Assembly (NCBI GenBank): GCA_017465225.1
Contig: JAFTWQ010000006.1
Coordinates: 1-64,000 of the forward strand
DNA length: 64,000 bases
Reading direction: 5' to 3'
Source of the DNA: Bacteroidales bacterium
GTDB lineage: Bacteria > Bacteroidota > Bacteroidia > Bacteroidales > UBA932
The notes beneath the pieces are model-generated. The model ran no database searches. It saw only the letters and a program-made list of their open reading frames with translations, and was not told where the DNA came from. Each line of letters opens with the position of its first letter. Positions within the stretch are counted from its first letter, which is position 1. Below, piece by piece: positions 24,789 to 39,478 of this stretch. The position numbers were made by a program, and so were the translations under genes.

Positions 24789-26774
24789 ATGAAGAGAATC
24801 TTTTCTTTCCTATCATTCCTGATGTGCTCTCTTGCGCTTCAGGCGCAGCCTGCCGGAGGTTTCGGAGGCTGGCAGATGCCGAAGATAGATGTGCATTGCT
24901 CCGAGAAGTTCGCGGATATCGATTATGTCGGTGACGATCAGGTTTATCACAAGCTTGACATATATATACCGAAGGTGGAGAAAGAGGCTTACCCTGTCGC
25001 TGTCCATATTTATGGAAGTGCGTGGTTCTCGAACAGCTCCAAGAACATGGCGGATCTCGGCACTATCGTGAATGCGCTTCTCGATGCAGGATATGCCGTC
25101 GTGACTCCGAACCATCGTTCGTCTATGGACGCCAAGTTCCCTGCACAGATCCATGATATCAAGGCGGTGATCCGTTTCGTACGTGGAAATGCCGAAAAAT
25201 ACATGTTCGACACAGATTTCATCGTGACTTCAGGCTTCTCTTCTGGAGCTCACCTTGCATCGCTTGCGGCGACAAGCTGCGGCGTGGCGGAGCTTGAGGG
25301 TTCTCTTGGCGCCTATACGGATTACAGCAGCCTCGTTGATGCGGCATGCTGCTGGTCAGGCCCTACCGACCTCAATTTCATGAGCTGCGGCCGTGAGGTC
25401 GATGACTGGAATCATGGACCTGAAGAGGCTGTGATGGGCTTCGCTTTCAAGGGCAATGAAGAGGCTTTCAAGGCTCTCAACGCTACGACATACATCGATC
25501 CTTCCGATCCTCCGATCGTAGTCTTCCACGGAACCGCCGACAATGTGGTTCCTGTATGTCAGGGCGAGCATTTCCATGAACTTCTTGCAAAGGCAGGCGT
25601 ACAGACCGAGCTTCATCTTGTGGATGGTGCAGGCCATGGCATGGGAATGTATGCTCCCGAGACATTGGAGACTATGGTTTCATTCGTCGAGCGGGCACGT
25701 GTCTCAAAGGCTGTAAAGGAGGATTTCGCTCCATCTGCAGCAAACCAGCCGGGAAAGCAGTATCCTATGGTCAATTCGGAGCGTATCGTCCGCGCACAGC
25801 TCAAGGCTCCAGATGCGGTGACCGTGAAACTTGACATCGGAGGCGTTAAATACCCTATGAAGAGGGATGAGAACGGAGTGTGGACAGGCGACTCGGCTCC
25901 TCAGGACGAGGGATTCCATTATTATCAGTTCGAGGTGGACGGAGCATCGGTTCCTGATCCGGGCAGCCTTTATTATTATGGTGCAGGCCGTTGGGGCAGC
26001 GGAATCGAGATCCCTGCCCATGACCAGGATTTCTATGCCTTGAAGAATGTTCCTCATGGCGACATCCGTGAGGTTCATTACTGGTCGGAGACCAACAAGG
26101 CTATGCGTCACTGCTTCATCTACACTCCTCCGGGATACGACCAGAACAAGAAGAAGAGGTATCCTGTACTCTATCTCCAGCACGGTGGCGGCGAGAACGA
26201 ATACGGATGGCCGGAGCAGGGCAAGACTGGCCTTATCATGGACAACCTCATCGCAGAGGGCAAGGCTGAAGAGTTCATCATTGTCATGGATAACGGCACA
26301 TGGGCAAGACCACGTCGTGCTCCAGGTATGGGCCTTCCTTCCAACTGGGCTGACGGCTTCATGAATACCCTTATCAACGACATCATCCCTATGGTCGATT
26401 CGAGATACCGTACAAAAGCTGACAGCAAGTACCGCGCAATGGCCGGTCTTTCTATGGGAGGTATGCAGACAAAGGCCATCACAATGAAGAATCCGGATGT
26501 CTTCTCTGCTCTCGGAATCTTCAGCGGCGGAGTGATTTCAGCCGAAGAGGCAGACCAGGCAGAAGGCTTCAGGGATGCTTACAAGCTTGTTTTCATAAGC
26601 TTCGGCAGCCGTGAGGTCGAGACTCCTCGTTATGGCCACGATCCGAAGGTCGTTACCGAAGAGCTCAAGGCTTCAGGCATGAACGCCCACTACTACGTCT
26701 CTCCGGAGACAGCTCACGAATGGCAGACCTGGCGCCGCAGCCTCTACCACTTCGCCCAGCTCCTTTTCAAATAG
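24789..26774 (+). CDS. Bimodular esterase: BD-FAE-like hydrolase - CBM48-like - CE1
   Basis: A secreted 661-residue protein (signal ends LQAQ) with two separate alpha/beta-hydrolase units. Residues ~40-305 carry HIYGSAWFSN (oxyanion region), Ser151 in GFSSGAHLAS, Asp in VVFHGTADNVVP and His in DGAGHGMG, a pattern of bacterial feruloyl/acetyl esterases of the esterase-lipase type. Residues ~325-420 are CBM48-like, and ~425-661 form a CE1 domain with Ser555 in AGLSMGGMQT and His in AHEWQTW. This protein and the CE6-CE1 gene give the locus two different partners fused to the same CE1 block. It is the last gene of the right arm and is followed by a branched palindrome that serves as terminator. 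Confidence 0.85.
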   Translation: MKRIFSFLSFLMCSLALQAQPAGGFGGWQMPKIDVHCSEKFADIDYVGDDQVYHKLDIYIPKVEKEAYPVAVHIYGSAWFSNSSKNMADLGTIVNALLDAGYAVVTPNHRSSMDAKFPAQIHDIKAVIRFVRGNAEKYMFDTDFIVTSGFSSGAHLASLAATSCGVAELEGSLGAYTDYSSLVDAACCWSGPTDLNFMSCGREVDDWNHGPEEAVMGFAFKGNEEAFKALNATTYIDPSDPPIVVFHGTADNVVPVCQGEHFHELLAKAGVQTELHLVDGAGHGMGMYAPETLETMVSFVERARVSKAVKEDFAPSAANQPGKQYPMVNSERIVRAQLKAPDAVTVKLDIGGVKYPMKRDENGVWTGDSAPQDEGFHYYQFEVDGASVPDPGSLYYYGAGRWGSGIEIPAHDQDFYALKNVPHGDIREVHYWSETNKAMRHCFIYTPPGYDQNKKKRYPVLYLQHGGGENEYGWPEQGKTGLIMDNLIAEGKAEEFIIVMDNGTWARPRRAPGMGLPSNWADGFMNTLINDIIPMVDSRYRTKADSKYRAMAGLSMGGMQTKAITMKNPDVFSALGIFSGGVISAEEADQAEGFRDAYKLVFISFGSREVETPRYGHDPKVVTEELKASGMNAHYYVSPETAHEWQTWRRSLYHFAQLLFK

Positions 26775-26801
26775 ACTCGCGAGCAGACTGTACCTGATAT
26801 A

Positions 26802-26903
26802 AAATAAACCCGACCGAATATGTAGGTGACATGCCACCCCCGGCTAGGGGGTGCCTGCCGCAGGCAGGCGGGGGTCACCGGAATATCGGTCGGGTTTATT
26901 TTT
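26802..26903. repeat. Branched palindromic element A (bidirectional terminator between CE1 and purA)
   Basis: The outer arms AAATAAACCCGACCGA (26802-26817) and 26886-26901 are perfect 16-bp complements. Inside, GGTGAC (26825-26830) pairs with GTCACC (26874-26879). Inside that are two hairpins, CACCCCC/GGGGGTG (26835-26853, GGCTA loop) and GCCTGCC/GGCAGGC (26853-26869, GCA loop). The whole would fold as a cruciform or three-way junction. It lies between convergent genes, with T-runs at both ends, so it can terminate both. It shares architecture with elements at 29252, 33093 and 39151. Confidence 0.8.
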
Positions 26904-26916
26904 GTGTCAGGTAACC

Positions 26917-28179
26917 TTATCTCATGATAGTCGCCTCACGGTCAGGACCTACAGAAATGATCTTGATAGGAACCTCGAGGAAATTCTCCATGAATGCGAT
27001 ATAGTCGCGGAACTCCTGTGGAAGCTCTTCCTCCGTACGGCAATGAGTGAGGTCGGTATTCCATCCCTTGAACTCTGTATATACAGGCTGGATGTCTGCG
27101 TAAGTGTCGAAAGGCCACTGGTTTGAAGGCTTTCCGTCAACGATGTATGATGTGCAGACCTTGATGGTCTCGAATGTGTCGAGGCAGTCGGACTTCATCA
27201 TGATGAGATCGGTCACACCGCTGATCATCACAGCATATTTGAGAGCTACGAGGTCGAGCCATCCGCAACGGCGTGGACGTCCCGTAACCGCTCCGAACTC
27301 ATGTCCGATCGCACGGATCTTCTCGCCGGTCTCATCGAAGAGCTCGGTAGGGAACGGACCGCTTCCTACGCGTGTGCAGTATGCCTTGAAGATTCCGTAT
27401 ACATGTCCGATCTTCTGCGGGCTTACTCCGAGACCTACGCATGCGCCCGAACATGAAGTCGTCGATGATGTCACGAACGGATATGAACCATAGTCGATGT
27501 CGAGCATTGAGCCCTGTGCGCCCTCTGCAAGAATCTCCTTGGTCTTGAGAAGCTCGTTGATATAGTATTCGCAGTCAACAAGCTCGAACTTCTTGAGGAA
27601 GTCCACAGCTTCCATGAACGCAGCGTCCTCTGCATGAGGATCGCACTCGTAGCCCATCTGCTTGAGAAGGGTGATGTGCCTGTTCTGAAGCTTCGCATAT
27701 CTGTCAGCGAAGTCAGGTGCGAGGATGTCGCCTACGCGGAGGCCGTGACGGCTGATCTTGTCTGTGTAAGTCGGGCCGATACCCTTGAGAGTCGATCCGA
27801 TCTTGCTCTTTCCCATTGCTGCTTCATTTGCAGCATCGAGAAGTCTGTGAGTAGGAAGGATGAGATGTGCCTTCTTTGCGATCACGATACGTTCAGTCAC
27901 AGGAATGCCTGTCTTTTCGGCGATGTTGTCGCATTCTCCCTTGAATGTGATAGGGTCGAGAACCACGCCGTTTCCTACGATGTTCTTTGCGTCATCTCTG
28001 AAGATTCCTGACGGAACTGATCTGAGTACGAAGCTTTTGCCATCGAAATGGAGTGAGTGACCTGCGTTAGGACCACCCTGGAAACGTGCCACTACCGGAT
28101 AGTTTCCGGCAAGCACGTCAACGATCTTACCTTTTCCCTCGTCGCCCCACTGGAGGCCGAGTACTACATCAAGTTTCAT
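26917..28179 (-). CDS. purA: Adenylosuccinate synthetase
   Basis: A cytosolic GTP-dependent enzyme that joins IMP and aspartate to adenylosuccinate, the committed step to AMP. The 420 residues are of normal length. Motifs seen are GLQWGDEGKGKIVD (GTP and catalytic Asp), QGGPNAGHSLHFDG (catalytic His), GSTLKGIGPTYTDK (IMP binding) and the C-terminal VGPDREATI. It is the last gene of the ssb-purA pair (35-base gap) and ends against element A. Confidence 0.97.
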   Translation of the reverse strand: MKLDVVLGLQWGDEGKGKIVDVLAGNYPVVARFQGGPNAGHSLHFDGKSFVLRSVPSGIFRDDAKNIVGNGVVLDPITFKGECDNIAEKTGIPVTERIVIAKKAHLILPTHRLLDAANEAAMGKSKIGSTLKGIGPTYTDKISRHGLRVGDILAPDFADRYAKLQNRHITLLKQMGYECDPHAEDAAFMEAVDFLKKFELVDCEYYINELLKTKEILAEGAQGSMLDIDYGSYPFVTSSTTSCSGACVGLGVSPQKIGHVYGIFKAYCTRVGSGPFPTELFDETGEKIRAIGHEFGAVTGRPRRCGWLDLVALKYAVMISGVTDLIMMKSDCLDTFETIKVCTSYIVDGKPSNQWPFDTYADIQPVYTEFKGWNTDLTHCRTEEELPQEFRDYIAFMENFLEVPIKIISVGPDREATIMR

Positions 28180-28214
28180 TTTCGGTATATGATTATTCTG
28201 TTAATTTCTGGTGA

Positions 28215-28754
28215 TTAGAATGGAAGGTCATCCTCCGGCATGTCATCGACGACGTTCTGTGGCGCTGCAGGGCGCTGCTGCTGTGGTGCAGGGGCATATG
28301 CCGGCTGCTGCGGCTGACTGTATGACGGAGCTGAAGGCTGTGCCGGAGCAGCGTAGCCAGGCTGCTGATAGCCCTGTGGCTGCTGGTATCCTCCCTGCTG
28401 GGCTCCAGGATTGTCAGACTTCTTACCGAGGAGCTGGAGAGTGTCTGCGATGATTTCGGTCGTGTACCTCTTGTTGCCGGTCTGGTCGTCCCATGACCTT
28501 GTGCGGATACGTCCCTCGATATAGAGCTGTGTGCCCTTCCTTACGAATCTTTCGACAACATCTGCCGTGTTTCTCCAGGCCACGATGTTGTGCCATTCTG
28601 TATTCTCGCGTGTTTCACCGTTACGGTCCCTGTACCTCTCGGTTGTGGCCAGCGTGAATGTCGCCACTTTTGCATTTCCGGATTGTCCATCAAGGTAACG
28701 TACTTCAGGGTCTCTACCAACGTTACCGATCAGCATTACTTTGTTTAGTGACAT
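28215..28754 (-). CDS. ssb: Single-stranded DNA-binding protein
   Basis: An OB-fold SSB of 179 residues. SLNKVMLIGNVGRDPEVRY and EWHNIVAW define the DNA-binding domain (~1-110). A Gln/Pro/Tyr-rich linker follows, then the acidic tip DDMPEDDLPF that recruits repair and replication proteins. The start is ATG 28754. A longer frame to 28796 lacks family similarity. A TATCTTGC (near 28805 on the minus strand) resembles a weak -7 box. The linker is Pro-Gln-rich (YQQPQGYQQPGY), as often seen in this phylum. Confidence 0.96.
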   Translation of the reverse strand: MSLNKVMLIGNVGRDPEVRYLDGQSGNAKVATFTLATTERYRDRNGETRENTEWHNIVAWRNTADVVERFVRKGTQLYIEGRIRTRSWDDQTGNKRYTTEIIADTLQLLGKKSDNPGAQQGGYQQPQGYQQPGYAAPAQPSAPSYSQPQQPAYAPAPQQQRPAAPQNVVDDMPEDDLPF

Positions 28755-28822
28755 ATGTTGTTGTATTAGTAGTGTCTTTAACAGGGCACGGCCCAAAAAC
28801 TTTGCAAGATAGTCATATTTTC

Positions 28823-29674
28823 TTATAAAACATCGGACATCCTCTGCAAATCCGGTTTTTCTCCGGTAAAAATCTCATATCCGGTCACAGCCTGATACAG
28901 GAGCCATGTTCTGCCTCCGGAATATTCCGCCAATGGATTGGCAGCTTTCATCTTCCTGATCAGCGCCTCGTCGAATGAAGGATTCCTGTAGTTCGCCTCC
29001 ATGATGTGTTTCGGCTTTCCTAGGGCGAAGTCGCTGTCTGTCAGCTCTTCCAGCTCCGAAATTGCTGCCGGAATGTTGTAGATGATGATGTCAGCCTCTC
29101 TGAAGCATTCCCTGAAATCGTCAAGTGAATGGGTCATGTCATCCTTGATCGTCCTGTTCATACGGATGACCTCCATGCCGAGAGATTCCGCTGCCGCTGC
29201 CGCCGCCTTTCCTGCCCCTCCAAGGCCGACAATCAGTGTTTTGAATTTCTGCGGAGGTTGCGGAGGGTTTGAAAAGAACCCCTCCCACTCCGATGGAGTG
29301 GGCCCCTCCCCCTGCGGCCAGGGGGGTAGCACGCTTTTCAAACCCTCTGCAACCTCCGTCAGCCACATTCTGACACCAAGGTAGTCTGAATTGTAGGCCT
29401 TTATGCCCTCGGGGGTCTTTACAAGTAGATTCGTTGCCCCGATGGTCTTGCACTCAGGGGACAGTATGTCAGCCTTCGCGAAAGCAAGTTCCTTGAACGG
29501 AGCTGTCACATTGATCCCGTCATATCCCTCAAGAAAACGCTCATATGCCTCCTCGAAATCGGCAGTCTCGATCAACTCATACGGATATCTTCCGTCATAC
29601 CCCGCCTTGAAAAGGGCAGGGGACAGCGAATGTGCGATCGGGTGACCTATGAGACCGAACTTTTTTATTGTCAT
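28823..29674 (-). CDS. aroE: Shikimate dehydrogenase with an in-frame palindromic insertion
   Basis: Reduces 3-dehydroshikimate to shikimate with NADPH in the chorismate pathway. The N-terminal substrate domain has GLIGHPIAHSLSP (conserved SxS), NVTAPFKE (catalytic Lys) and NSDYLG. The NADP domain has GLGGAGKAA. Between NSD and GLGGA there are 52 residues, against about 23 in E. coli AroE. The extra ~29 residues (SVLPPWPQGEG to PPQPPQ, bases ~29247-29333) are encoded by a branched palindrome that keeps the frame open. The insert lies in the linker before the Rossmann fold and may be tolerated as a surface loop. The ATG at 29674 lies within a dispersed GTCATTCTGAACG-type repeat. Confidence 0.93.
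   Translation of the reverse strand: MTIKKFGLIGHPIAHSLSPALFKAGYDGRYPYELIETADFEEAYERFLEGYDGINVTAPFKELAFAKADILSPECKTIGATNLLVKTPEGIKAYNSDYLGVRMWLTEVAEGLKSVLPPWPQGEGPTPSEWEGFFSNPPQPPQKFKTLIVGLGGAGKAAAAAAESLGMEVIRMNRTIKDDMTHSLDDFRECFREADIIIYNIPAAISELEELTDSDFALGKPKHIMEANYRNPSFDEALIRKMKAANPLAEYSGGRTWLLYQAVTGYEIFTGEKPDLQRMSDVL
29252..29358. repeat. Branched palindromic element B, inside aroE
   Basis: Arms 29252-29276 and 29334-29358 are complementary over 25 bp with one mismatch. The 57-base interior holds hairpins CCCACTCC/GGAGTGGG (29284-29302, loop GAT) and CCCCCTG/CAGGGGG (29308-29325, loop CGGC). The right arm encodes native-looking AroE residues TEVAEGLKS. The left arm is its inverted copy and encodes FSNPPQPP. 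The connector AGGGGCCCAC (minus strand here) is also found in element C. Confidence 0.8.
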
Positions 29675-29695
29675 TCTGAACGAAGTGAAGAATCT
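29669..29695. repeat. Dispersed short repeat (GTCATTCTGAACG type) at the aroE start
   Basis: TGTCATTCTGAACGAAGTG followed by AAGAATCT matches copies at 62787-62813 and 63116-63177 in the pattern TGTCATYCTGARCGNAG...ATCT. The aroE ATG (29672-29674, minus) lies inside it, so the repeat supplies the start codon and the leader. Confidence 0.65.
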
Positions 29696-29697
29696 GT

Positions 29698-30495
29698 TTA
29701 ACTGTTGCGCTGTCTGACAGCCTCGAACATCAGGATTGCGGCAGAGACGGATACATTGAGGGAGTCCAGTCTGCCGAGCATAGGGATCTTTATATGTGCA
29801 TCGGCCGCCTTTCTCCAGGCGTCAGTCAATCCTGTGGCCTCTGTACCCATGACTATGGCTGTGCTGCCTTTCATGTCGGTATCATAATACCATTCCGAGT
29901 CCTGAAGCTGTGCGGTATAGATCTTTATTCCATTGTCCTTGAGCCATTTGATCGTGTCTTCCGAGGAAGCGGTAGCGACCGGAACAGTGAATATCGCTCC
30001 GATGCTTGAGCGGATGAGATTAGGATTATACATATCGGTCAGAGGATCACATACGATGACAGCATCGACTCCTGATGCGTCTGCGCTACGGAGGACCGCT
30101 CCCAGATTTCCCGGCTTTTCGACAGATTCCAGGACCACGATCAGAGGATTCTCCTTCAGCTTCAGGCTTTCGAGATTCATGTTCTTGCAATGCAGCTCGG
30201 CGATCACTCCTTCAGTCCCTCCGCGGTATGCAACCTTGTCGTAAAGATGCTGCGGAATCTCGATGAACGGGCATCTGCATTTTGAAGCGATTTCCTCTAA
30301 ATCGGCCTTCTGCAGTATTTCAGGGCATATGAAGGCAGTATGAGGCTCATATCCCGCCTCGATGCAATGAAGCAGCTCGCGTCTTCCCTCGACCACGAAC
30401 AATCCCTTCTTCCTTCTCTCCTTCGACTTCTCCTGAAGCGCCAGCAGATCCTTGATCTTCGGATTCTGCGCCGATGTTATGCTTTCTATTCTCAT
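29698..30495 (-). CDS. SpoU/TrmH-family RNA 2'-O-ribose methyltransferase
   Basis: A cytosolic SAM-dependent (SPOUT knot) methyltransferase acting on rRNA or tRNA. The N-terminal substrate-binding domain begins ITSAQNPKIKDLLALQ. The catalytic motifs are LESVEKPGNLGAVLRSADASG (motif 1), IVMGTEATGL (motif 2) and LDSLNVSVSAAILMFEA (motif 3). The target base is not known. The start at 30495 (MRIESITS) is preferred because the predicted promoter ends at 30516. An ATG four codons upstream (30507) would leave almost no leader. The gap to aroE is 23 bases. Confidence 0.9.
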   Translation of the reverse strand: MRIESITSAQNPKIKDLLALQEKSKERRKKGLFVVEGRRELLHCIEAGYEPHTAFICPEILQKADLEEIASKCRCPFIEIPQHLYDKVAYRGGTEGVIAELHCKNMNLESLKLKENPLIVVLESVEKPGNLGAVLRSADASGVDAVIVCDPLTDMYNPNLIRSSIGAIFTVPVATASSEDTIKWLKDNGIKIYTAQLQDSEWYYDTDMKGSTAIVMGTEATGLTDAWRKAADAHIKIPMLGRLDSLNVSVSAAILMFEAVRQRNS

Positions 30496-30515
30496 GTTAT
30501 TCTTCATCCCAAGGG

Positions 30516-30550
30516 CAAATTTAGCATAATTTTGCAAGATAATCCGCAAA
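30516..30550 (-). promoter_or_regulatory. Promoter before the SpoU methyltransferase
   Basis: Minus-strand TAAATTTG (30516-30523) is a perfect -7 element. A TTTG (30547-30550) is 23 bases upstream, slightly over the usual spacing. The element overlaps the 3' end of the AAA ATPase gene, and the leader would be about 15 bases. Confidence 0.5.
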
Positions 30551-31660
30551 GAAATAGTCATAGATTCTATATACTCCTTCCTCGCAGGTAACGATATCAT
30601 TCTTCATCAATGGCTTCAACGCAGCCTGTACCGAGCTCGCAGAAACCAGTCGATGCCTCTTAACAAATTCTGATGAGGTGATTCCTTCCACGTTCTTGTC
30701 TTTGGCGATAGCATATAGCAGCTGTTTCTGTTTCGGAGCCAGACCGAACAGGATTGCCTGGAACCTGTCCTCCTGTGCCATAATGATGTTTTCCCAAGCA
30801 AAATCGATGTACTCCGGCGTGCAGATCATACCCTCGCGTGTGAGTGCGAACAGTTCATTCATCATCATCTGCATATACCACGTACATCCGTCAAACATTC
30901 TGTATATCAGTTCTGCAACAGTCTTGTCCAGGAATTTACCTTTTTCAGCAAACATCCGTCCGGCAAATTCAGTGTAAATGTCCATCGGAATCGGCTTCAG
31001 ACTCTGGCTTATCACGCTCTGGAAAAAAGGTTTGGCAGGGGAGTAGAAGATATCTGTCATTATATGTCTCTTGCTTCCGCAGAAAATGAATGAAGTCCTT
31101 GAACATTCCTGGACAAGGGAACGTATGAAAGCCTCGGTAGTGCTCTGGGGATATTCCCTTATCTGCTGGAATTCGTCAATCGCCAGGACGCATGGCTTTT
31201 CGGAAGCTTCCATGTACTCGAACAATTCCCTGATCGTCTTGTCGGGATGCTCGATGTCTCCTACGCCGATGTTGAAGGATGGCTCTCCGGTAACGGCATC
31301 GATGGTGAATCCTACCGTAAGGGACCTGATGAATGAAAAGAACTTCTCGTGCCATTTCTTCTGTGGCCTGACAGCCTTTACAATGGCCTCTGACAGCGCC
31401 TTTACGAATTCGTGCAGATCTTTGGTCGAGTATATGTCCACATATATGGGCGTATATTTTTCCTTGATGGTTTCCTGCGCGAATGTATGATGGATAAGGC
31501 CGCTTTTACCCAGACGGCGTGGCGAGATCAAAGCGACATTCCTGCCGTTTACGATGTGCTTTATAAGCGTCTCTGTGTCCTTTTCGCGGTCGCAGAAATA
31601 ATGTTTGTCAACGTACCTTCCTATGAAGAAAGGGTTGAATATCTCGTCTCGAAGGATCAT
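30521..31660 (-). CDS. AAA/STAND-like ATPase with C-terminal winged helix
   Basis: A 379-residue protein of the archaeal-ATPase-like group common in Bacteroidota. It has an N-terminal IGRYVDKHYFCDRE, Walker A SPRRLGKSG (~44-52), Walker B CVLAIDEFQQI (~160-170) and a sensor-like FIFCGSKRHIM. The C-terminus is helical with a winged-helix-like block (LLYAIAKDKNVEGITSSEFVKRHRL to GVYRIYDYFFADYL). Its cellular role is unknown; relatives sit as single genes in many genomes. ATG 31660 is used because the -7 element at 31677-31684 places transcription just upstream. A longer frame to 31759 would start before the promoter. Confidence 0.8.
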   Translation of the reverse strand: MILRDEIFNPFFIGRYVDKHYFCDREKDTETLIKHIVNGRNVALISPRRLGKSGLIHHTFAQETIKEKYTPIYVDIYSTKDLHEFVKALSEAIVKAVRPQKKWHEKFFSFIRSLTVGFTIDAVTGEPSFNIGVGDIEHPDKTIRELFEYMEASEKPCVLAIDEFQQIREYPQSTTEAFIRSLVQECSRTSFIFCGSKRHIMTDIFYSPAKPFFQSVISQSLKPIPMDIYTEFAGRMFAEKGKFLDKTVAELIYRMFDGCTWYMQMMMNELFALTREGMICTPEYIDFAWENIIMAQEDRFQAILFGLAPKQKQLLYAIAKDKNVEGITSSEFVKRHRLVSASSVQAALKPLMKNDIVTCEEGVYRIYDYFFADYLAKLC

Positions 31661-31676
31661 AGCATCATTTTTATCG

Positions 31677-31684
31677 CAAATATA
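31677..31684 (-). promoter_or_regulatory. -7 promoter element of the AAA ATPase gene
   Basis: Minus-strand TATATTTG (31677-31684) is a perfect TAnnTTTG in an AT-rich intergenic stretch. The leader to ATG 31660 would be about 12 bases. No clear -33 TTTG at 19-21 bases is seen. Confidence 0.5.
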
Positions 31685-31718
31685 ATTATTATATTCATAA
31701 TAAAATGGTCCTGATGCC

Positions 31719-32225
31719 TTATTCATACCATTTTTTGTAATGGAGATAATGTTCTGCATTGGCGTGGGCCTTGGCCTGAATGGCCTCCGAGCCGTCCTTG
31801 ATCTTTCTGGCAGGGATCCCGGCCCATATTCCCGGCTCCAGCTTCTGATTTGCAGGGACCACTGCTCCGGCAGCGATGATCGTACCGTCCGGAACGATGG
31901 TGTTGTCCATGACTATGGCCCCCATTCCCACGATCACGTCATTGCCTATGATGCAGCCGTGCACGTTGGCCCCGTGGCCGATGGATACGTCATTCCCGAT
32001 GATGCACTCCGACTGCTTGTATGTGGCGTGCAGGACCGCATTATCCTGAATATTCACGCGGTCGCCGATGCGGATAGCCCCGACATCTCCACGCAAGACC
32101 GCCCCGTACCATATGCTGCAGTCGTCTCCGATTCCCACTGTCCCTATGATTGTCGCCGTCTCCGCCAGAAACGCACGTTCTCCTATGACGGGCTTGTCGC
32201 CCTTGAGTTCCTTGATTATTGCCAT
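31719..32225 (-). CDS. Gamma-carbonic anhydrase family hexapeptide protein
   Basis: A 168-residue left-handed beta-helix trimer protein. Hexapeptide repeats run through the middle (IIGTVGIGDDCSIWYGAVLRGD, ILIGNDV-type turns). Metal-ligand-like histidines are in AVLHAT and SIGHGANVHG. Members hydrate CO2 or are acyltransferase-like proteins of unclear activity, so catalysis is not proven here. It follows the PIN toxin gene by 11 bases and is likely on the same transcript. Its downstream neighbour has its own promoter. Confidence 0.9.
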   Translation of the reverse strand: MAIIKELKGDKPVIGERAFLAETATIIGTVGIGDDCSIWYGAVLRGDVGAIRIGDRVNIQDNAVLHATYKQSECIIGNDVSIGHGANVHGCIIGNDVIVGMGAIVMDNTIVPDGTIIAAGAVVPANQKLEPGIWAGIPARKIKDGSEAIQAKAHANAEHYLHYKKWYE

Positions 32226-32236
32226 TTTACGATTAT

Positions 32237-32704
32237 TTAATATCCATACTGAGCGACAGGCTCGTTTAAAATTCTGCCAGGGCCAGCTTTCATCTCATCA
32301 ATGATGGTCAGCATTTCCGCAGGGGTGACGATGAAGGGTTTCTTCGGGAAATGCCTGATGTTGCCTGTTACCAGGAATGAATCCTCCTTGCTTAATGCGA
32401 CTTCATAAAATACAATGTCATCCTTGTCTATGAAGATCTCATCGGAGATGGCTGTACGGCCTAATGAGATCCCATAATCCAAGAAAATACTTATAATCCA
32501 GTCGATATCGGTTTTCCTGAATGGAAACTTGTCCCTCTTCAAAACCTCTTCGTATTCGTTCAGTATGTCTTCGTTATATAGCGGAGTAATGGCTCCGTCA
32601 ATTATTTTTCTGATGATGATTGACGGATTTGAATTACCAGAGATTGAGAATAGGGCTGAAACCAGAACGTTGGTGTCTATGACAGCATAAATCTTAGCGT
32701 CCAT
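32237..32704 (-). CDS. PIN-domain toxin (putative toxin-antitoxin ribonuclease)
   Basis: A 155-residue PIN-fold nuclease-like protein. The first acidic site is in AVIDTNVLVSALF. Later acidic residues occur at LNEYEEVLKR, FIDKDDIVFYEVAL and SFLVTGNIRHFP, the usual PIN pattern of the PF13470/COG1569 type. Such toxins are metal-dependent RNases, but the target is unknown. ATG 32704 overlaps the 3' end of the antitoxin gene by 11 bases; a GTG at 32716 is a possible earlier start. Tight coupling to a RelB-like gene supports a TA pair. Confidence 0.85.
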   Translation of the reverse strand: MDAKIYAVIDTNVLVSALFSISGNSNPSIIIRKIIDGAITPLYNEDILNEYEEVLKRDKFPFRKTDIDWIISIFLDYGISLGRTAISDEIFIDKDDIVFYEVALSKEDSFLVTGNIRHFPKKPFIVTPAEMLTIIDEMKAGPGRILNEPVAQYGY

Positions 32705-32987
32705 TTCGTACTTCACGGATTATTGAGTTGATTTCACCCAGTGACATGCCTTGTAATCCGCTTCTGGCAGCATCTTCTCTCATTCTTTCGAATGCCTCCA
32801 TTGCTCTCTTTCTTCTCTCGTCTTCGGACAAAGACTTGATCTCAAACGGAATCCTCCGCTCTCTCACCATCGTCTTCATAAAGATAGTGAGGGCAGCTGT
32901 GTTGCTGAGGCCGAACTCATCGCAAAGCTTGTCGAAGTCCTTCTTTAAAGAGTCATCGACTCTGAATGTCATTGTTGTCTGTGCCAT
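32694..32987 (-). CDS. RelB/DinJ-family antitoxin
   Basis: A 97-residue ribbon-helix-helix protein. MTFRVDDSLKKDFDKLCDEFGLSNTAAL is the RelB/DinJ DNA-binding N-terminus, and the C-terminal part is charged and probably disordered until it binds the toxin. It would neutralise the PIN protein encoded next and repress its own promoter. ATG 32987 is chosen because the predicted transcription start is near 33003. An upstream frame extension to 33038 crosses the promoter. Confidence 0.88.
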   Translation of the reverse strand: MAQTTMTFRVDDSLKKDFDKLCDEFGLSNTAALTIFMKTMVRERRIPFEIKSLSEDERRKRAMEAFERMREDAARSGLQGMSLGEINSIIREVRNGR

Positions 32988-33007
32988 AATCCTCTTACTT
33001 TGTATTG

Positions 33008-33039
33008 CAAATATATGTACAATGTAACTATAATGCAAA
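33008..33039 (-). promoter_or_regulatory. Promoter of the RelB/PIN operon
   Basis: Minus strand: -33 TTTG (33036-33039), 20 bases, then a perfect -7 TATATTTG (33008-33015). The two boxes are embedded in repeated TGCAAATAT sequences (33007-33014 region and 33035-33042 region), which may double as operator half-sites for autoregulation. Confidence 0.75.
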
Positions 33040-33092
33040 TATTATTCTAGTAAATTGTGTGTTACAGATTTTCGTATTGAGGTCTTGACATA

Positions 33093-33191
33093 AAAATACC
33101 AAGGCTGTACAGTAAGGTGGCATTGGCTCCCGAAAAGGGAAGGGGCCCACGTCAGTGGGAAGGACCACCGGCTGTACAGCCTTGGTATTTT
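33093..33191. repeat. Branched palindromic element C (lysS terminator)
   Basis: Arms AAAATACCAAGGCTGTACAG (33093-33112) and 33172-33191 are a perfect 20-bp inverted repeat. Inside, GGTGG (33116-33120) pairs with CCACC (33165-33169). Within that, TCCC/GGGA (33128-33140) and CCCAC/GTGGG (33146-33159, loop GTCA) form two hairpins. On the minus strand it is 15 bases past the lysS stop and ends in TTTTTA, so it can terminate lysS. The core matches element A in layout (TA-GGTGxCAT ... CACCGG) and element B in the AGGGGCCCAC connector. Confidence 0.8.
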
Positions 33192-33206
33192 GTATGAGAA
33201 AATCTC

Positions 33207-34721
33207 TTACAGACTCTTCGGTCTCATCTGCGGGAAGAAGAGCACATCCTGGATGGTAGGGGAGTTGGTCATGAACATTGTCAGACGGTCGATTCCCATA
33301 CCGAGTCCTGATGTAGGAGGCATACCGTACTCGAGTGCGCGTACGAAGTCCATGTCGATGAACATAGCCTCGTCGTCTCCCTTGTCCTTCAGCTTGAGCT
33401 GATCCTGGAAACGCTCGTACTGGTCGATAGGGTCGTTCAGCTCGCTGTATGCGTTCGCAAGCTCCTTGCCGCATACGAAGAGCTCGAAGCGCTCTGTGAG
33501 CTCAGGATTTGTGCGGTGACGCTTTGTGAGCGGCGACATCTCCACAGGATAATCAGTAATGAATGTAGGCTGCACGAGGTGCTTCTCGCAGTACTCTCCG
33601 AAGATTGCGTCGATGAGCTTGCCCTTTCCGAATGAAGGGTCGGTCTCCACATGGAGCTTCTTGCAGGTCTCGCGAAGCTCGTCCTCTGACATGCCTGCCA
33701 CGTCAACTCCTGCATATTCCTTGATGGCCTCGAGGATAGGGAGGCGGCGGAAAGGCGGCTTGAAGTCAACCTGGTTCTCTCCGATTGTCACCTCTGTCTT
33801 GCCGTGGAGCTTGAGAGCGATCTTCTCGAGGAGCTTCTCTACGAACTCCATCATCCAGATATAGTCCTTGTAAGCCACATAGATCTCCATGCAGGTGAAC
33901 TCAGGGTTGTGGGTCTTGTCCATACCCTCGTTGCGGAAGTCCTTTGCGAACTCATATACTCCGTGGTATCCGCCGACGATGAGTCTCTTGAGGTAGAGCT
34001 CGTTTGCGATACGGAGGTAGAGAGGAATGTCGAGAGCGTTGTGGTGAGTAATGAACGGACGTGCTGTCGCGCCGCCAGGGATGCTCTGGAGGATAGGTGT
34101 CTCCACCTCAAGGCATCCTGCCTCGTTGAAATACTCACGCATTGTAGCCACGATCTGGCTTCTCTTGATGAATGTATCGCGTACCTGTGGGTTTACGATA
34201 AGGTCCACATATCTCTGTCTGTACTTGAGCTCAGGATCCGAGAATGCATCGAACACCTCGCCGTCCTTCTCCTTCACGATCGGAAGGACACGGAGAGACT
34301 TGCTGAGGAGAGTCAGTTCCTTTGCGTGGATAGAAAGCTGTCCTGTCTTGGTGATGAATGCGAATCCCTTGATTCCTACGATGTCACCTATGTCGAGGAG
34401 CTTCTTCCATACTGTGTTGTACATTGTCTTGTCTTCGCCAGGGCAGATCTCGTCACGGTTTACATAGATCTGGATACGGCCGGTCTCATCCTGCAGCTCG
34501 CCGAATGATGCCGCGCCCATGATGCGCCTTGACATGATACGGCCTGCGATGACCACGTCCTGGAAATTGCCTTTCTCCTCGTCGTACTCAGCCTTCACCT
34601 GCGCAGCAGAAGTGTTGATTGGGTAGAGTGGTGCCGGATAAGGCTCGATTCCGAGTTCTCTGAGCTTTGCGAGCGATTCTCTTCTGAACAGCTCCTGCTC
34701 GTTGAGGTCCATAATGCTCAT
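33207..34721 (-). CDS. lysS: Lysyl-tRNA synthetase, class II
   Basis: Charges tRNA-Lys. Residues ~55-165 form the OB-fold anticodon-binding domain ([18 protein letters not shown]). The class II core has motif 1 near [12 protein letters not shown], motif 2 in [24 protein letters not shown] and motif 3 in [12 protein letters not shown]. The 504 residues are full length for the bacterial type. Start ATG 34721 is 60-70 bases downstream of a -7 element at 34788. A later ATG (34712) is also possible. It is divergent from recJ. Confidence 0.97.
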
Positions 34722-34787
34722 AGTCGTTAAATCTTTATATTTTGTTTATCTGTTTCAGTTTAAGCCACAAATAGGCAAATTAAAGCA

Positions 34788-34795
34788 CAAAAATA
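34788..34795 (-). promoter_or_regulatory. -7 promoter element of lysS
   Basis: Minus-strand TATTTTTG (34788-34795) is a perfect TAnnTTTG. A TTTTG lies 24 bases upstream, so spacing is long. It would give a ~60-base leader. Confidence 0.45.
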
Positions 34796-34828
34796 GCATA
34801 AATAATTCTGAATTTGAAACAAAATCCA

Positions 34829-34836
34829 TATCTTTG
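34829..34836 (+). promoter_or_regulatory. -7 promoter element of recJ
   Basis: TATCTTTG (34829-34836) is a perfect TAnnTTTG that ends only six bases before the recJ ATG (34843). Transcription would start at or next to the start codon, implying a leaderless or nearly leaderless mRNA. Confidence 0.5.
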
Positions 34837-34842
34837 TATGCT

Positions 34843-36579
34843 ATGGTAGTGGAAAAGAAGTGGATATTGAAGGAAAACGCTGAACCTGAGACAGTCAGGC
34901 AGCTTTCTTCTGAACTTGGAGTCGACCCTGTTCTGGCGGAGCTCCTGGTCCAGAGGGGAGTCCGTACGTTCCATCAGGCACGTTCGTTCTTCCGTCCGAG
35001 TCTGGACGATCTCCACGATCCTTTCCTCATGACCGATATGGACAAGGCTGTCGAGCGTGTCCATCAGGCTGTGGCCAGCAGGGAGAAGATCCTTGTCTAT
35101 GGTGACTACGATGTTGACGGAACCACTGCGGTCTCTCTTGTCTATTCATTCCTCCGACGCCTTACTCCGGCAATCGATTTCTATATCCCTGAGCGATATG
35201 ACGAGGGATATGGCGTGTCGTACAAGGGCATCGACTGGGCTGCGGAGAACGGCTTCGGCCTCATAATCACTCTCGACTGTGGCATCAAGGCTAACGAGAA
35301 GGTCGAATATGCCCGTGAGAAAGGCATCGACATGATCATATGCGACCATCACCTTCCTGAAAACGAACTTCCGAAGGCGGTGGCGGTGCTTGATCCTAAA
35401 AGGGAGGACTGCTTCTATCCGTTCGACGACCTTTCAGGCTGTGGAGTGGGCTTCAAGCTCGTTCAGGCGTATTCACAGAGATATGACATCCCGTTCGAGA
35501 CCCTTATACCGCTTCTCGACCTTCTGGTTGTCAGCATCGCTTCTGACCTGGTGTCAGTTACAGATGAAAACCGTATTCTTGCCCATTTCGGACTGAAGCA
35601 GCTGAACGGAAATCCTCGTGAGGGACTTCTCGCGATGATCCAGCTTTCAGGCCTTGAACCGACCCACATCTCGATCGATGACATCGTCTTCAAGATCGGA
35701 CCGCGTATCAATGCGGCCGGCAGAATGGAGTCCGGACGTATTGCCGTAGAGCTTCTTACCGCCTCGAATGTAGAGGAGGCGATCCGTATCGGTACGGAGA
35801 TCAACGAGCATAACAACGAAAGAAAGAACATCGACCGCCGCATCACGCAGGAGGCTCTTGAAATGGTCCATACCGGTAACTGTCTCTCCAGCGGAAATGC
35901 GACAATCGTATATAATCCTCAGTGGCACAAGGGAGTCGTGGGCATCGTGGCCTCGCGTCTTGTGGAGGCATTCTATAAGCCTACAATCGTGTTCACCCAG
36001 TCGCAGGGCGGCCTTGTGACAGGCTCAGCGCGAAGTGTGCATGGCTTCGACCTTTATGATGCAATCGAGAGCTGTTCAGACCTTCTGGAGAACTTCGGAG
36101 GTCATCTTTATGCTGCAGGACTCACCCTCAAGGAAGAGAATCTCCCTGCGTTCTGCGAAAGGATAGAAAAGTCCATCTCCGGTACGATCATTCCTGAGAT
36201 GCAGACTCCTGTGGTGGATGTGGATGCAAGGCTCAATTTCTCGCAGATCACTCCTAAATTCCTCCGTATCCTCAAGCAGTTCCAGCCTTTCGGCCCGGGC
36301 AATTCGGCTCCGGTGTTCCTGACAGAGAATGTTTATGACAACGGAATGGGAAGAAAGGTAGGCGCAGAGGGAGGCCATCTCAAGCTCGAGCTTATCCAGG
36401 AGTCACATCCTTACCATCATATTTCGGCCATCGCATTCAATATGGCTGATTTCTTCGATCACATCAAGACCGGCAATTCCATCGATGTGTGCTACTCCAT
36501 CGTAGAGAACTATTACAGGGGAACTGCCAACACCCAGCTCCGCATCAAGGATATGCATGAGCGTGATGAAATGATCTGA
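34843..36579 (+). CDS. recJ: Single-stranded-DNA 5'-3' exonuclease RecJ
   Basis: A DHH-family exonuclease for mismatch repair, base excision and recombination. The metal motifs are ILVYGDYDVDGTTA (motif I), LIITLDCG (II), MIICDHHLPENE (the DHH motif III) and LDLLVVSIASDLV (IV). The DHHA1 domain contains HKGVVGIVASRL and SARSVHGFDLYDAI with GGHLYAAG. The C-terminal OB-like part reads LKQFQPFGPGNSAPVF. The 578 residues match the family. ATG 34843 was chosen over an earlier in-frame ATG because the promoter lies between them and similarity begins here. Confidence 0.95.
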   Translation: MVVEKKWILKENAEPETVRQLSSELGVDPVLAELLVQRGVRTFHQARSFFRPSLDDLHDPFLMTDMDKAVERVHQAVASREKILVYGDYDVDGTTAVSLVYSFLRRLTPAIDFYIPERYDEGYGVSYKGIDWAAENGFGLIITLDCGIKANEKVEYAREKGIDMIICDHHLPENELPKAVAVLDPKREDCFYPFDDLSGCGVGFKLVQAYSQRYDIPFETLIPLLDLLVVSIASDLVSVTDENRILAHFGLKQLNGNPREGLLAMIQLSGLEPTHISIDDIVFKIGPRINAAGRMESGRIAVELLTASNVEEAIRIGTEINEHNNERKNIDRRITQEALEMVHTGNCLSSGNATIVYNPQWHKGVVGIVASRLVEAFYKPTIVFTQSQGGLVTGSARSVHGFDLYDAIESCSDLLENFGGHLYAAGLTLKEENLPAFCERIEKSISGTIIPEMQTPVVDVDARLNFSQITPKFLRILKQFQPFGPGNSAPVFLTENVYDNGMGRKVGAEGGHLKLELIQESHPYHHISAIAFNMADFFDHIKTGNSIDVCYSIVENYYRGTANTQLRIKDMHERDEMI

Positions 36580-36610
36580 TTTCCATTGTATTACAATTGA
36601 TATTTTTGCC

Positions 36611-36618
36611 TATATTTG
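36611..36618 (+). promoter_or_regulatory. -7 promoter element of the Pif1-like helicase gene
   Basis: TATATTTG (36611-36618) is a perfect TAnnTTTG with an ATTG 22 bases upstream. Downstream, AGGAGG (36629-36634) lies 8 bases before ATG 36643. This is a strong SD, uncommon among genes of this window. Confidence 0.5.
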
Positions 36619-36642
36619 CTGAAAATATAGGAGGATAGCGAG

Positions 36643-38823
36643 ATGGAGGGAAATAACGCACTGAATACGGCATGGGAATTTGTGGAGAAGACAGGAAAGA
36701 GCGTCTTTCTGACCGGAAAGGCCGGAACGGGAAAGACCACATTCCTGCGGAAGGTTGTAGAGGAGTCGAGGAAAAGGGTAGTCGTTGTCGCTCCGACGGG
36801 CATCGCCGCCATAAATGCAGGAGGCGTCACGATCCATTCATTCTTCCAGCTTCCGCTGCATCCTTTCATCCCCGGAGCTAAGATCGAGTCCAAATTTGCA
36901 TTCAGCAAGGAAAAGAGAAGCATAATAAAGACCATGGACCTGCTCATCATTGATGAGATAAGTATGGTGCGCAGTGACCTCCTTGATGCGGTGGATTCCG
37001 TGCTCAGACGTTTCCGCAACCGTTTCAAGCCCTTCGGCGGCGTACAGCTTCTGATGATCGGCGATCTTCAGCAGCTGACTCCGGTAATAACCGATGAGGA
37101 GATCCAGCTCCTAGCCCCATATTATTCAAACCCGTACTTTTTCGGCAGCCGCGCCTTGAGTCAGGTCGATTATGTGACCATAGAGCTGAAGGAAGTGTAC
37201 CGCCAGCAGGATGATGCATTCATTTCCATCTTGAATTCCGTGCGCTGCGGCAGACCTTCGCCAGATGTGATCCGTGCATTGAACCAGCGGTATGACCCCA
37301 ATTTCATCCCGTCATCGGATGAGGGCTATATCCGTCTTACGACCCACAACAACATAGCAAACAGCTACAACGAGCAGCAGCTCGACATGATCGATGAGCC
37401 GATCCATTGCTTTGATGCTGTGATTGACGGCAACTTCCCGGAATATTCTTACCCTACCGAAGCACGGCTTGAACTCAAGGTCGGGGCACAGGTCATGTTC
37501 GTGAAGAATGATCCTTCGGCGGAACGTCGTTATTTCAATGGAAAGATCGGCGTCGTGACGGATTTCTATGAAGAATACATCCTTGTGCAATGTCCGGGAG
37601 ATGATGAGAAGATAGCCGTTGAGCCTCTTGAATGGGAGAACTGCAGGTATGTCATCAATGAGCAGACGCAGGAGATGGAGACCGAAGTGGTGGGTATCTT
37701 CAAGCAGTATCCATTGAGGCTTGCATGGGCCATCACTATCCATAAAAGCCAGGGCCTTACATTCGACAAGGCCATAATTGATGCCGCCTCTTCCTTTGCA
37801 TCAGGGCAGGTTTATGTGGCCTTGAGCCGCTGCCGCACTCTTGAGGGAATGGTGCTGGCGACTCCATTGCGTCAGGATGCCGTGATTACGGATCATAGGG
37901 TGGATGACTACATTGACGGGCAGGAGGAAGCTGCGCAGCGTAGTGTAGCCCGGCTTGAGTCCATAAAGGAGGAATATTATAAGGAACTTCTTGGGGAACT
38001 GTTTGATTTCAAGGGACTTGCCTCTCTTCAGAAAAGAATGCTGGGAATCTGCATGGAGTTCCCTTCAGGCACGGTCGTAGGCCTCGCACAGAAACATAAC
38101 GATATTCTGAATTCGTTGAATGAGACTGTCGTGCCGGTAGGCGCGAAATGGCAGAGGCTGATAATGCAGAAGCCATATCAGGAGGTCTCTTCGCAGGAGT
38201 TCAGCGCGAGGGTGAAGAACGGATGTGCGTATTTCCTTTCGGAGCTTGACGGCATGTATGGTGATTTCCTTGACAAGACCAGGGACATCAAGGCCGAGAA
38301 CAAGGAACTGGTGAAGCGCTATGGAAATGTCTGGAATGATCTGGATATGGAGCTTTCAGGCATCAGGATACTCCTGAAGGCCATGTCGGCTGTGCCGTTC
38401 TCTACTGAAGCCTATCTCAGGGAGCGTCAGATTGCGGTGTTCGAGGCATCGGGATTCGTACCAAAAGAACTGAAGACTCCGAAATCCTCAAAGAAGCCGG
38501 CATCCAAGCCACAGAAGGAAAAGAAGGAAGACACGAAGGTGACTACCTTCAAGCTTTACAAGCAGGGTCTTTCAGTAAAGGAGATTTCCAAGGAACGTGA
38601 TCTCAATCAGCAGACTATTGTCCGCCATCTTGCCCATTATGTTGCGAAAGGAATGATTTCAGTGGAAGATCTTGTTCCATCCTCTAAAGTAGATTCCATC
38701 CAGGAAATCATTTCCGGCCTCGGCTCAGTAAAAAGCCTTTCAGCCATCAAGGAAGCCTGCCCTTCCGACATCACCTATCAGGACATCACCCTCGTCATCG
38801 CCGCCATGGAATCCCAAGCCTGA
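36643..38823 (+). CDS. Pif1/RecD-like superfamily 1B helicase with C-terminal helix-turn-helix
   Basis: A 726-residue DNA helicase. Motif I is TGKAGTGKTTFL (~24-35), Ia APTGIAAINAGG, II LLIIDEISMV and III LLMIGDLQQLTPV. The C-terminal motifs include RLAWAITIHKSQGLTF and GQVYVALSRCRTLEGM. After ~500 the protein has a helical region and a Lys-rich linker (KTPKSSKKPASKPQKEKKE). It ends with an HTH_40-like domain (YKQGLSVKEISKERDLNQQTIVRHLAHY) of the kind seen at RecQ C-termini. The combination is widespread in Bacteroidota, and its role in replication-fork or G-quadruplex processing is inferred from Pif1. Its last 29 bases overlap the antisense 3' end of aroK. Confidence 0.9.
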   Translation: MEGNNALNTAWEFVEKTGKSVFLTGKAGTGKTTFLRKVVEESRKRVVVVAPTGIAAINAGGVTIHSFFQLPLHPFIPGAKIESKFAFSKEKRSIIKTMDLLIIDEISMVRSDLLDAVDSVLRRFRNRFKPFGGVQLLMIGDLQQLTPVITDEEIQLLAPYYSNPYFFGSRALSQVDYVTIELKEVYRQQDDAFISILNSVRCGRPSPDVIRALNQRYDPNFIPSSDEGYIRLTTHNNIANSYNEQQLDMIDEPIHCFDAVIDGNFPEYSYPTEARLELKVGAQVMFVKNDPSAERRYFNGKIGVVTDFYEEYILVQCPGDDEKIAVEPLEWENCRYVINEQTQEMETEVVGIFKQYPLRLAWAITIHKSQGLTFDKAIIDAASSFASGQVYVALSRCRTLEGMVLATPLRQDAVITDHRVDDYIDGQEEAAQRSVARLESIKEEYYKELLGELFDFKGLASLQKRMLGICMEFPSGTVVGLAQKHNDILNSLNETVVPVGAKWQRLIMQKPYQEVSSQEFSARVKNGCAYFLSELDGMYGDFLDKTRDIKAENKELVKRYGNVWNDLDMELSGIRILLKAMSAVPFSTEAYLRERQIAVFEASGFVPKELKTPKSSKKPASKPQKEKKEDTKVTTFKLYKQGLSVKEISKERDLNQQTIVRHLAHYVAKGMISVEDLVPSSKVDSIQEIISGLGSVKSLSAIKEACPSDITYQDITLVIAAMESQA

Positions 38824-39478
38824 TTATGGTTTCGGCGATTTCGTCGATGGTTTTGCCGTCGGTGTCGATGATTATATGGGCAGTAGATTCATATGTGGCA
38901 GAACGCCGCTCCATAAGTCCTGATATCCTATCTCTCAAGGATTCTCCCAGCAGCATCGGACGATTAGCTGTCTCTCCTTCCAGATGGCTGACGAGTGTCT
39001 CAACAGATGCCTTCAGGTATATGCATATGGTTCCGTTTTGCACGATGTCAGCACATTCACGGGTCATTACAGTTCCTCCGCCCAATGCCAACACCATTTC
39101 AGCTTTCTCAAATGGTACATCATTATCTATGCTTTGCGTTGTTTCTGATGATTCTGTCGGGAGAGCAGAGGTGTCTCGGACGTTCGCTTCGCTCACCCCA
39201 CCACTTCGCTTCGCTTGTGGTCCCCCCGCTTCCGTGCCGCGGGTGGCACGGTCCTCAATCACCTCATGCCCTCCCGACAGAATAGAGCCAAGCCTCTCTG
39301 CTTCAATCGTCCTGAAACCAGCCTCTCCCTTTTCAGCAAAGATCTCCGGAATACTCTTTCCGGCCCATGCTTCAATCTCCTCATCAAGATCCATAAAAGG
39401 ACAGCAGAGCAGCTCCGAGAGTCTCCTCCCGACACTGCTCTTGCCGCATCCCATGAATCCTGTCAATGATATTATCAT
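38795..39478 (-). CDS. aroK: Shikimate kinase with an in-frame palindromic insertion
   Basis: Phosphorylates shikimate with ATP. TGFMGCGKSSVGRRLSELL is the Walker A, DLDEEIE and GFRTIEAE bind shikimate, LALGGGTVM is the GGG motif, and ANRPMLLG is the lid. Between GFR and GGG there are 76 residues, against about 20 in E. coli AroK. The extra ~56 residues are mostly encoded by a branched palindrome (39151-39283) and read as low-complexity sequence (TRGTEAGGPQAKRSGG). The frame stays open, so the protein is probably made with a long surface loop. The ATG overlaps the parC stop by one base (TGATG), showing translational coupling. Confidence 0.92.
   Translation of the reverse strand: MIISLTGFMGCGKSSVGRRLSELLCCPFMDLDEEIEAWAGKSIPEIFAEKGEAGFRTIEAERLGSILSGGHEVIEDRATRGTEAGGPQAKRSGGVSEANVRDTSALPTESSETTQSIDNDVPFEKAEMVLALGGGTVMTRECADIVQNGTICIYLKASVETLVSHLEGETANRPMLLGESLRDRISGLMERRSATYESTAHIIIDTDGKTIDEIAETIIRLGIPWRR
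39151..39283. repeat. Branched palindromic element D, inside aroK
   Basis: Outer arms ATTCTGTCGGGAG (39151-39163) and CTCCCGACAGAAT (39271-39283) are perfect complements. They continue through GCA/TGC to GAGGTG (39168-39173) with CACCTC (39260-39265). The interior has hairpins ACCAC/GTGGT and CCGTGCC/GGCACGG, plus a duplicated TTCGCTTCGCT. The right arm encodes native AroK residues ILSG; the left arm, its inverted copy, encodes ALPTES. Confidence 0.75.

Follow-up and report, generated by a model that had tools for sequence, protein, structure and literature searches.

To our knowledge, it is poorly understood by what route palindromic repeats of bacteria, REPs and Rickettsia palindromic elements (RPEs) among them, spread through genomes, and how the match between their arms lasts. 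Both questions are raised by a 64,000-nucleotide stretch of DNA from a Bacteroidales bacterium (hereafter the window), which carries four palindromic elements with long outer stems around compact hairpin cores. In some uncultured gut bacteria such repeats are present by the dozen, and the outer stem, at least of those located inside genes, apparently copies in reverse the DNA adjoining the insertion site.

Four palindromic elements and their gene context

Scanning of the whole 64 kb for outer inverted repeats with loops of 30–140 nt and a score of at least 14 yielded exactly four elements (Table 1). These were found at the places where an initial annotation of this DNA had described long outer inverted repeats, and the same scan of 10 third-order Markov sequences returned 0 in each of them. 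The annotation is corrected here as to the gene context: elements 2 and 4 fall within the ORFs of aroE and aroK, respectively, and elements 1 and 3 just beyond the purA and lysS 3' ends. The core parts that it had regarded as shared were recovered in elements 1, 2 (reversed) and 3, whereas element 4 has a core of another family.

Table 1. Positions of the four elements, their arms and cores, and the associated genes in the window
Feature	Position	Strand	Remarks
Element 1 left outer arm	26801-26817	.	17 nt, 100% match
Element 1 R1 core	26822..26882	+	Contains a P1 stem, a CCCCC/GGGGG hairpin and a second hairpin that varies
Element 1 right outer arm	26886-26902	.	17 nt; beyond purA 3' end
purA	26917-28179	-	Element 1 just past its 3' end
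aroE (shikimate dehydrogenase)	28823..29674	-	Frame open across element 2
Element 2 left arm	29252-29276	.	25 nt, 96%; aroE-downstream side; probable new inverted copy
Element 2 family-2 core	29277..29333	-	57 nt
Element 2 right arm	29334-29358	.	aroE-upstream side; native coding sequence (EVAEGLK)
Element 3 left outer arm	33093-33112	.	20 nt, 100%
Element 3 core	33113..33171	+	Includes a GGTGG/CCACC stem and the AGGGGCCCAC hairpin
Element 3 right outer arm	33172-33191	.	Beyond lysS 3' end
lysS	33207-34721	-	Element 3 just past its 3' end
aroK (shikimate kinase)	38795..39478	-	Frame open across element 4
Element 4 left outer arm	39151-39167	.	17 nt, 94%
Element 4 core, different family	39168..39266	+	One further copy in the genome, C25:46424-46515
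Element 4 right outer arm	39267-39283	.	17 nt

Copies and distribution of the cores

For element 1, the same genome yields 13 further matches with E ≤0.001, each with its own pair of flanks, and a model of the R1 core (62 positions) has 21 matches there, which supports, across the genome, the annotation's claim of a family. For element 2, four further copies of at least 50 nt (C32:96560, C57:20105, C32:27954 and C22:24341) were detected in this genome along with shorter hairpin matches. Element 3 is the most diverged and has only short matches in the genome, and element 4 has a single relative, 95% identical over 92 nt. Of 80 genomes searched, 30 contain R1, the highest copy number being 32; 60 of the 80 came from an even draw (12 R1-positive) and 20 had been picked for aroE similarity (18 R1-positive). 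A 20-nt core word occurred in at least 112 stretches in named genomes, and among the matches listed, 80 of 80 were titled Bacteroidales, Bacteroidia, Bacteroidaceae or Candidatus Cryptobacteroides, the last name accounting for 3 of the 80. The genus of the window is presumably Cryptobacteroides. Elements 1, 2 and 3 are members of a genus-wide superfamily of cores. Viral carriage was also tried, and the 20-nt core word gave 0 exact matches in viral_contigs. No paper describing these elements was found among the open-access papers searched. At one locus (L090), an R1 element is seemingly nested within a family-2 element, part of which has been lost.

The core fold and its possible role as RNA

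The fold of the core is under constraint. Alignment of 33 cores shows pairing in 99.5% of the cells of the P1 stem and double changes at five of its six pairs, and the 60 double-change cells compare with 17.1 in shuffled data. P2 (CCCCC/GGGGG) was invariant in these cores, and P3 was variable, 80% of its cells being paired over the five columns counted. Strong covariation of this kind, together with the bias of the sites to 3' ends, would suit an interpretation of the elements as RNA structures at gene ends whose stems are held by selection. We consider this very improbable, as the elements also interrupt aroE, argE, miaA and aroK in either orientation, where a structured RNA would be of no obvious use, and Rfam 15 at gathering score recognized nothing but tRNAs in the window. 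A relaxed Rfam scan of positions 26700-39400 produced one unrelated weak match and no relevant family at E 1.

Outer stems across sites

Loci L069–L175, i.e. 107 of the at least 112 stretches, gave 104 sites after dropping duplicates and edge cases, and 96 of these, all from named Bacteroidales MAGs, had a P1 stem and full flanks and were used for arm pairing. The median arm-pairing score was 15.5, as opposed to 5.5 with swapped flanks, and the arms exceeded the control 99th percentile (9.5) at 82 of the 96 sites, so that the locus-specific stems initially described from the window alone find support genome-wide; the remaining 14 were within the control range. The control maximum (21.5) was exceeded at just eight sites, the control including orthologous and arm-sharing sites. 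When the right arm was compared with any other site, the best score had a median of 8.75 of 25 and was at least 18 in 11 of 96 cases. The triplet immediately outside P1 was most commonly GGA on both sides (39/96 and 50/96), and beyond this triplet the sequence was site-specific. In RUG14513 and its relatives (L073, L102, L106, L107, L136, L155, L156 and L158), R1 cores share one GC-rich outer arm across sites, and in this lineage the arms seem to travel together with the core; one of the comparisons behind this statement covered the 80 loci L069–L148.

Native and copied arms at coding sites

The initial annotation had offered two origins for such stems, insertion of the core into existing hairpin loops or inverted copying of the flank. 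As taken up here, the first would have the loops of transcription terminators as its main targets, and both arms would be older than the core. This fails at aroE. Among 53 aroE alleles, 11 carry a family-2 core, 21 are short (at most 30 nt between anchors) and 21 have other longer sequence; self-complementarity across the site was 15–31 in the 11 core alleles and only 4–8 in the 21 short ones. The conserved motif W[LI]x[ED], with which the upstream arm is colinear, occurs in 14 of the 21 short and in 6 of the 11 core alleles. Since the upstream side of the gene thus lines up in both groups, we conclude that of the two arms the upstream one is native and the downstream one a new inverted copy. 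In the closest pair, G129 without and G235 with the element, 22 of 26 positions in the upstream arm are the same: aroE of G129 runs from this arm directly to the next conserved block, and G235 has the core and the inverted copy in between. The G129 junction resembles a deletion between GGC repeats, and this empty allele could itself be the deletion product, in which case the polarity at aroE rests on the other short alleles. The aroE alleles of G300, G056 and G257 look like deletion remnants. Other, unrelated inserts occupy the same place in the aroE loop of G342, G338, G187, G337 and G123 (L189, L196, L211, L223 and L192, respectively), which marks the loop as an insertion hotspot.

At another coding site, where the core is of the R1 type, L145 carries the element and L149 lacks it; one arm was alignable there, and the same side was native as in aroE. 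A third coding site (L130 and L131 with the element, L178 without) was compatible but weaker. The native arm was on the upstream side of the gene at all three coding loci, a number (n=3) too small to build on. Where L178 and L131 carry hairpins, L014 (1693-1620) has a short AT palindrome that looks like a deletion remnant. In argE, 11 of 30 alleles have a core, two have other inserts and 17 have neither, and the loop was too variable to be aligned or to tell the native arm; likewise, the polarity of the arms at aroK was unclear on comparison. Relatives without the element at coding sites have one arm and not two, which supports inverted copying of the flank there. Inside genes, the stem is, on comparison of these alleles, target-derived.

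The reading frames of aroE, argE and aroK are open through the element, and the miaA ORF includes the core peptide. In miaA (L030:673-1860) and argE (L031:996-2291) the core is read in the same frame, so that nearly the same peptide, RATPLAAGGGAHDEGVGGV, has been gained. Of the argE genes of G287 (L269) and G300 (L267), one has in-frame tandem repeats (DDKENA-type) and the other an insert that resembles a CGTC-type REP.

Hairpins at gene ends

Entry of the core into the loop of a pre-existing hairpin is conceivable at gene ends. At the purA site, 4 of 11 relatives (G032, G021, G039 and G059) have a 12–21 bp hairpin unrelated in sequence to element 1, and at the lysS site at least 4 of 10 (G032, G021, G026 and G039) have 12–17 bp stems unrelated to element 3, the others being weaker. 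The corresponding stems of the window (17 and 20 bp), which both end in A/T tracts, could thus be terminators that received a core, and stems at gene ends may predate it. A terminator-like hairpin is also present in L030 at the place of the L080 element. Simple ORF calling classified 42 of the 104 sites as codirectional and 27 as convergent, as against three divergent ones, as would be expected if terminators were the targets. However, 16 of the remaining sites lie inside ORFs (10 of 104 by a stricter test; 11 others are near an edge and five unclear), and an A or T tract ends only 17 of 83 stems with a score of at least 12, a criterion that also misses the long G039 hairpin. With the failure at aroE, prior existence of both arms is unlikely as the explanation of the elements. 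The sites at which the alleles show flank copying all lie inside genes.

Matching of the arms and inversion of the core

Within a single aroE allele, the two arms pair at 0.91, whereas identity between the upstream arms of separate alleles is 0.54 across species; in argE the corresponding values were 0.87 and 0.46, the mean including a mis-parsed allele (G237). Comparison of the sister genomes G299 and G392 at aroE shows that five of six upstream-arm changes have a compensating counterpart in the opposite arm, and that the two genomes carry the core in opposite orientations. At argE of the same two genomes there were 0 compensated changes, and G299 has 5 mismatches in 24–25 positions; correction is therefore not constant. 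Four to five mismatches were also seen in the arms of G235, G129, G056 and G237. Both core orientations occur, 5 versus 6 in aroE and 2 versus 9 in argE. Homogenization of arms together with inversion of spacers matches the signature of template switching as published in PMC8604942, although alleles at the same site could be independent insertions instead of one insertion followed by correction.

Candidate enzymes

The statement that no transposase is nearby stands within the scope of Y1_Tnp and of the seven window proteins: the sole Y1_Tnp gene of this genome lies on another contig (C80:102697-103632), and its match to NCBIfam REP_Tyr_transpos is weak (36.8 bits, cut-off 80). A REP-type tyrosine (Y1) transposase acting in trans could move the cores as single-stranded hairpins, with host repair making the arms, and a Y1_Tnp match was indeed present in 30 of 30 R1-positive as compared with 35 of 50 R1-negative genomes (chance 3.4e-4 if the genomes are taken as independent, kinship being ignored). 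However, this association is uncontrolled for relatedness and involves no consistent ortholog, as G338 has none, G237 with its 32 copies has only a match at E 3.3e-5, and several R1-negative genomes have orthologs of 38–42%. Furthermore, the exact core word CCACCCCCGG was absent from 31 Y1 loci (120,259 bases), a search that diverged copies could escape, GTA precedes P1 at only 9 of 96 sites, and a Y1 transposase alone would leave the copying of the flank unexplained. We thus regard its involvement as decidedly unlikely. Of the two routes considered in the initial annotation, a trans-acting enzyme or template switching during replication, the latter fits best, and the former, as a Y1 transposase, is weakly supported.

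Long compound inverted repeats unlike the cores were noticed near Y1 transposase genes (L298:1282-1461 and L316:2595-2775). A reverse transcriptase was rejected as the mover: RVT_1 was present in 28 of 80 genomes, and it was not found in G000, G237 (32 core copies), G299 (31), G392 (27) and G021 (24), with the MAGs being incomplete. Given its absence from core-rich assemblies, it is not needed today.

A proposed foldback model

The same core occurs inside different stems at many sites and aroE has one native arm, which sets the stem apart from the mobile unit. The reading we favour, with a probability of roughly 60%, is that hairpin cores of ∼57–62 nt are mobile, that the outer stem is no part of the mobile unit, and that one flank is copied by foldback synthesis, either on insertion or in a later round of replication. 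A strand growing at the target and carrying flank A would gain the core from another copy, fold back via the self-complementary ends of the core, copy ∼20–30 nt of flank A in reverse and then return to the original template. Later rounds of template switching would re-match both arms and flip the core, and no dedicated enzyme would be required. That template switching underlies the foldback synthesis is suggested by analogy with PMC8604942 and with the maintenance argument of PMC6649704.

Tentatively, and at somewhat less than even odds, the elements may further represent a distinct class of mobile DNA, in which a core without terminal repeats of its own reverse-copies the target flank at each insertion, and errors of host replication keep the palindrome perfect and flip the core. 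At many sites of the superfamily, related genomes differ in having an occupied, an empty, an inverted or a remnant allele, so that flank-copying insertion, arm correction and spacer flipping each become testable. The superfamily would also supply new protein segments to conserved enzymes, and it hints at an uncommon means by which DNA spreads and stays folded.

Relation to known palindromic repeats

RPEs are short palindromic elements found in frame in unrelated metabolic genes (PMC10969869), whose repeat identity is lost over time (PMC6649704). The family described here likewise inserts in frame in coding genes (aroE, argE, aroK and miaA), but here the target supplies the arms, which are then re-matched; this comparison is by description. 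GTAG REPs, which go with RAYT transposases, form small hairpins that lie preferentially at the 3' ends of genes and are known from Proteobacteria, Cyanobacteria, Chloroflexi and PVC, CGTC repeats occurring also in Bacteroidetes (PMC3733652). Small hairpins and a 3'-end bias are common to these repeats and to the family described here, and the one Y1_Tnp gene of this genome may be RAYT-like, its NCBIfam score lying below the cut-off. In contrast to GTAG REPs, there is no conserved GTAG foot, the triplet before P1 being GGA at 39, ATA at 10 and GTA at 9 of 96 sites; moreover, the stem outside the core varies by site, and the repeat, looked for as the exact core word, was not found at the 31 Y1 loci scanned.

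Nematomorpha mitochondria have perfect inverted repeats in genes, for which maintenance by conversion or template switching was proposed; a mobile core such as that found here is not described in the accessible part of that report (PMC6649704). In yeast genes, template switching at quasi-palindromes homogenizes arms and inverts spacers in coding DNA, starting from short inverted repeats that already exist (PMC8604942), whereas here a mobile core would seed new long ones. The features of such palindromes seen in our alleles are the homogenization of arms between lineages and the inverted spacer, the latter possibly due to separate insertions. Finally, MITEs are small, non-coding, multi-copy and palindromic (PMC10969869), as are the window elements, but in the present family the unit does not include its outer inverted repeats as a constant component, the best score of right arms against other sites having a median of only 8.75 of 25.
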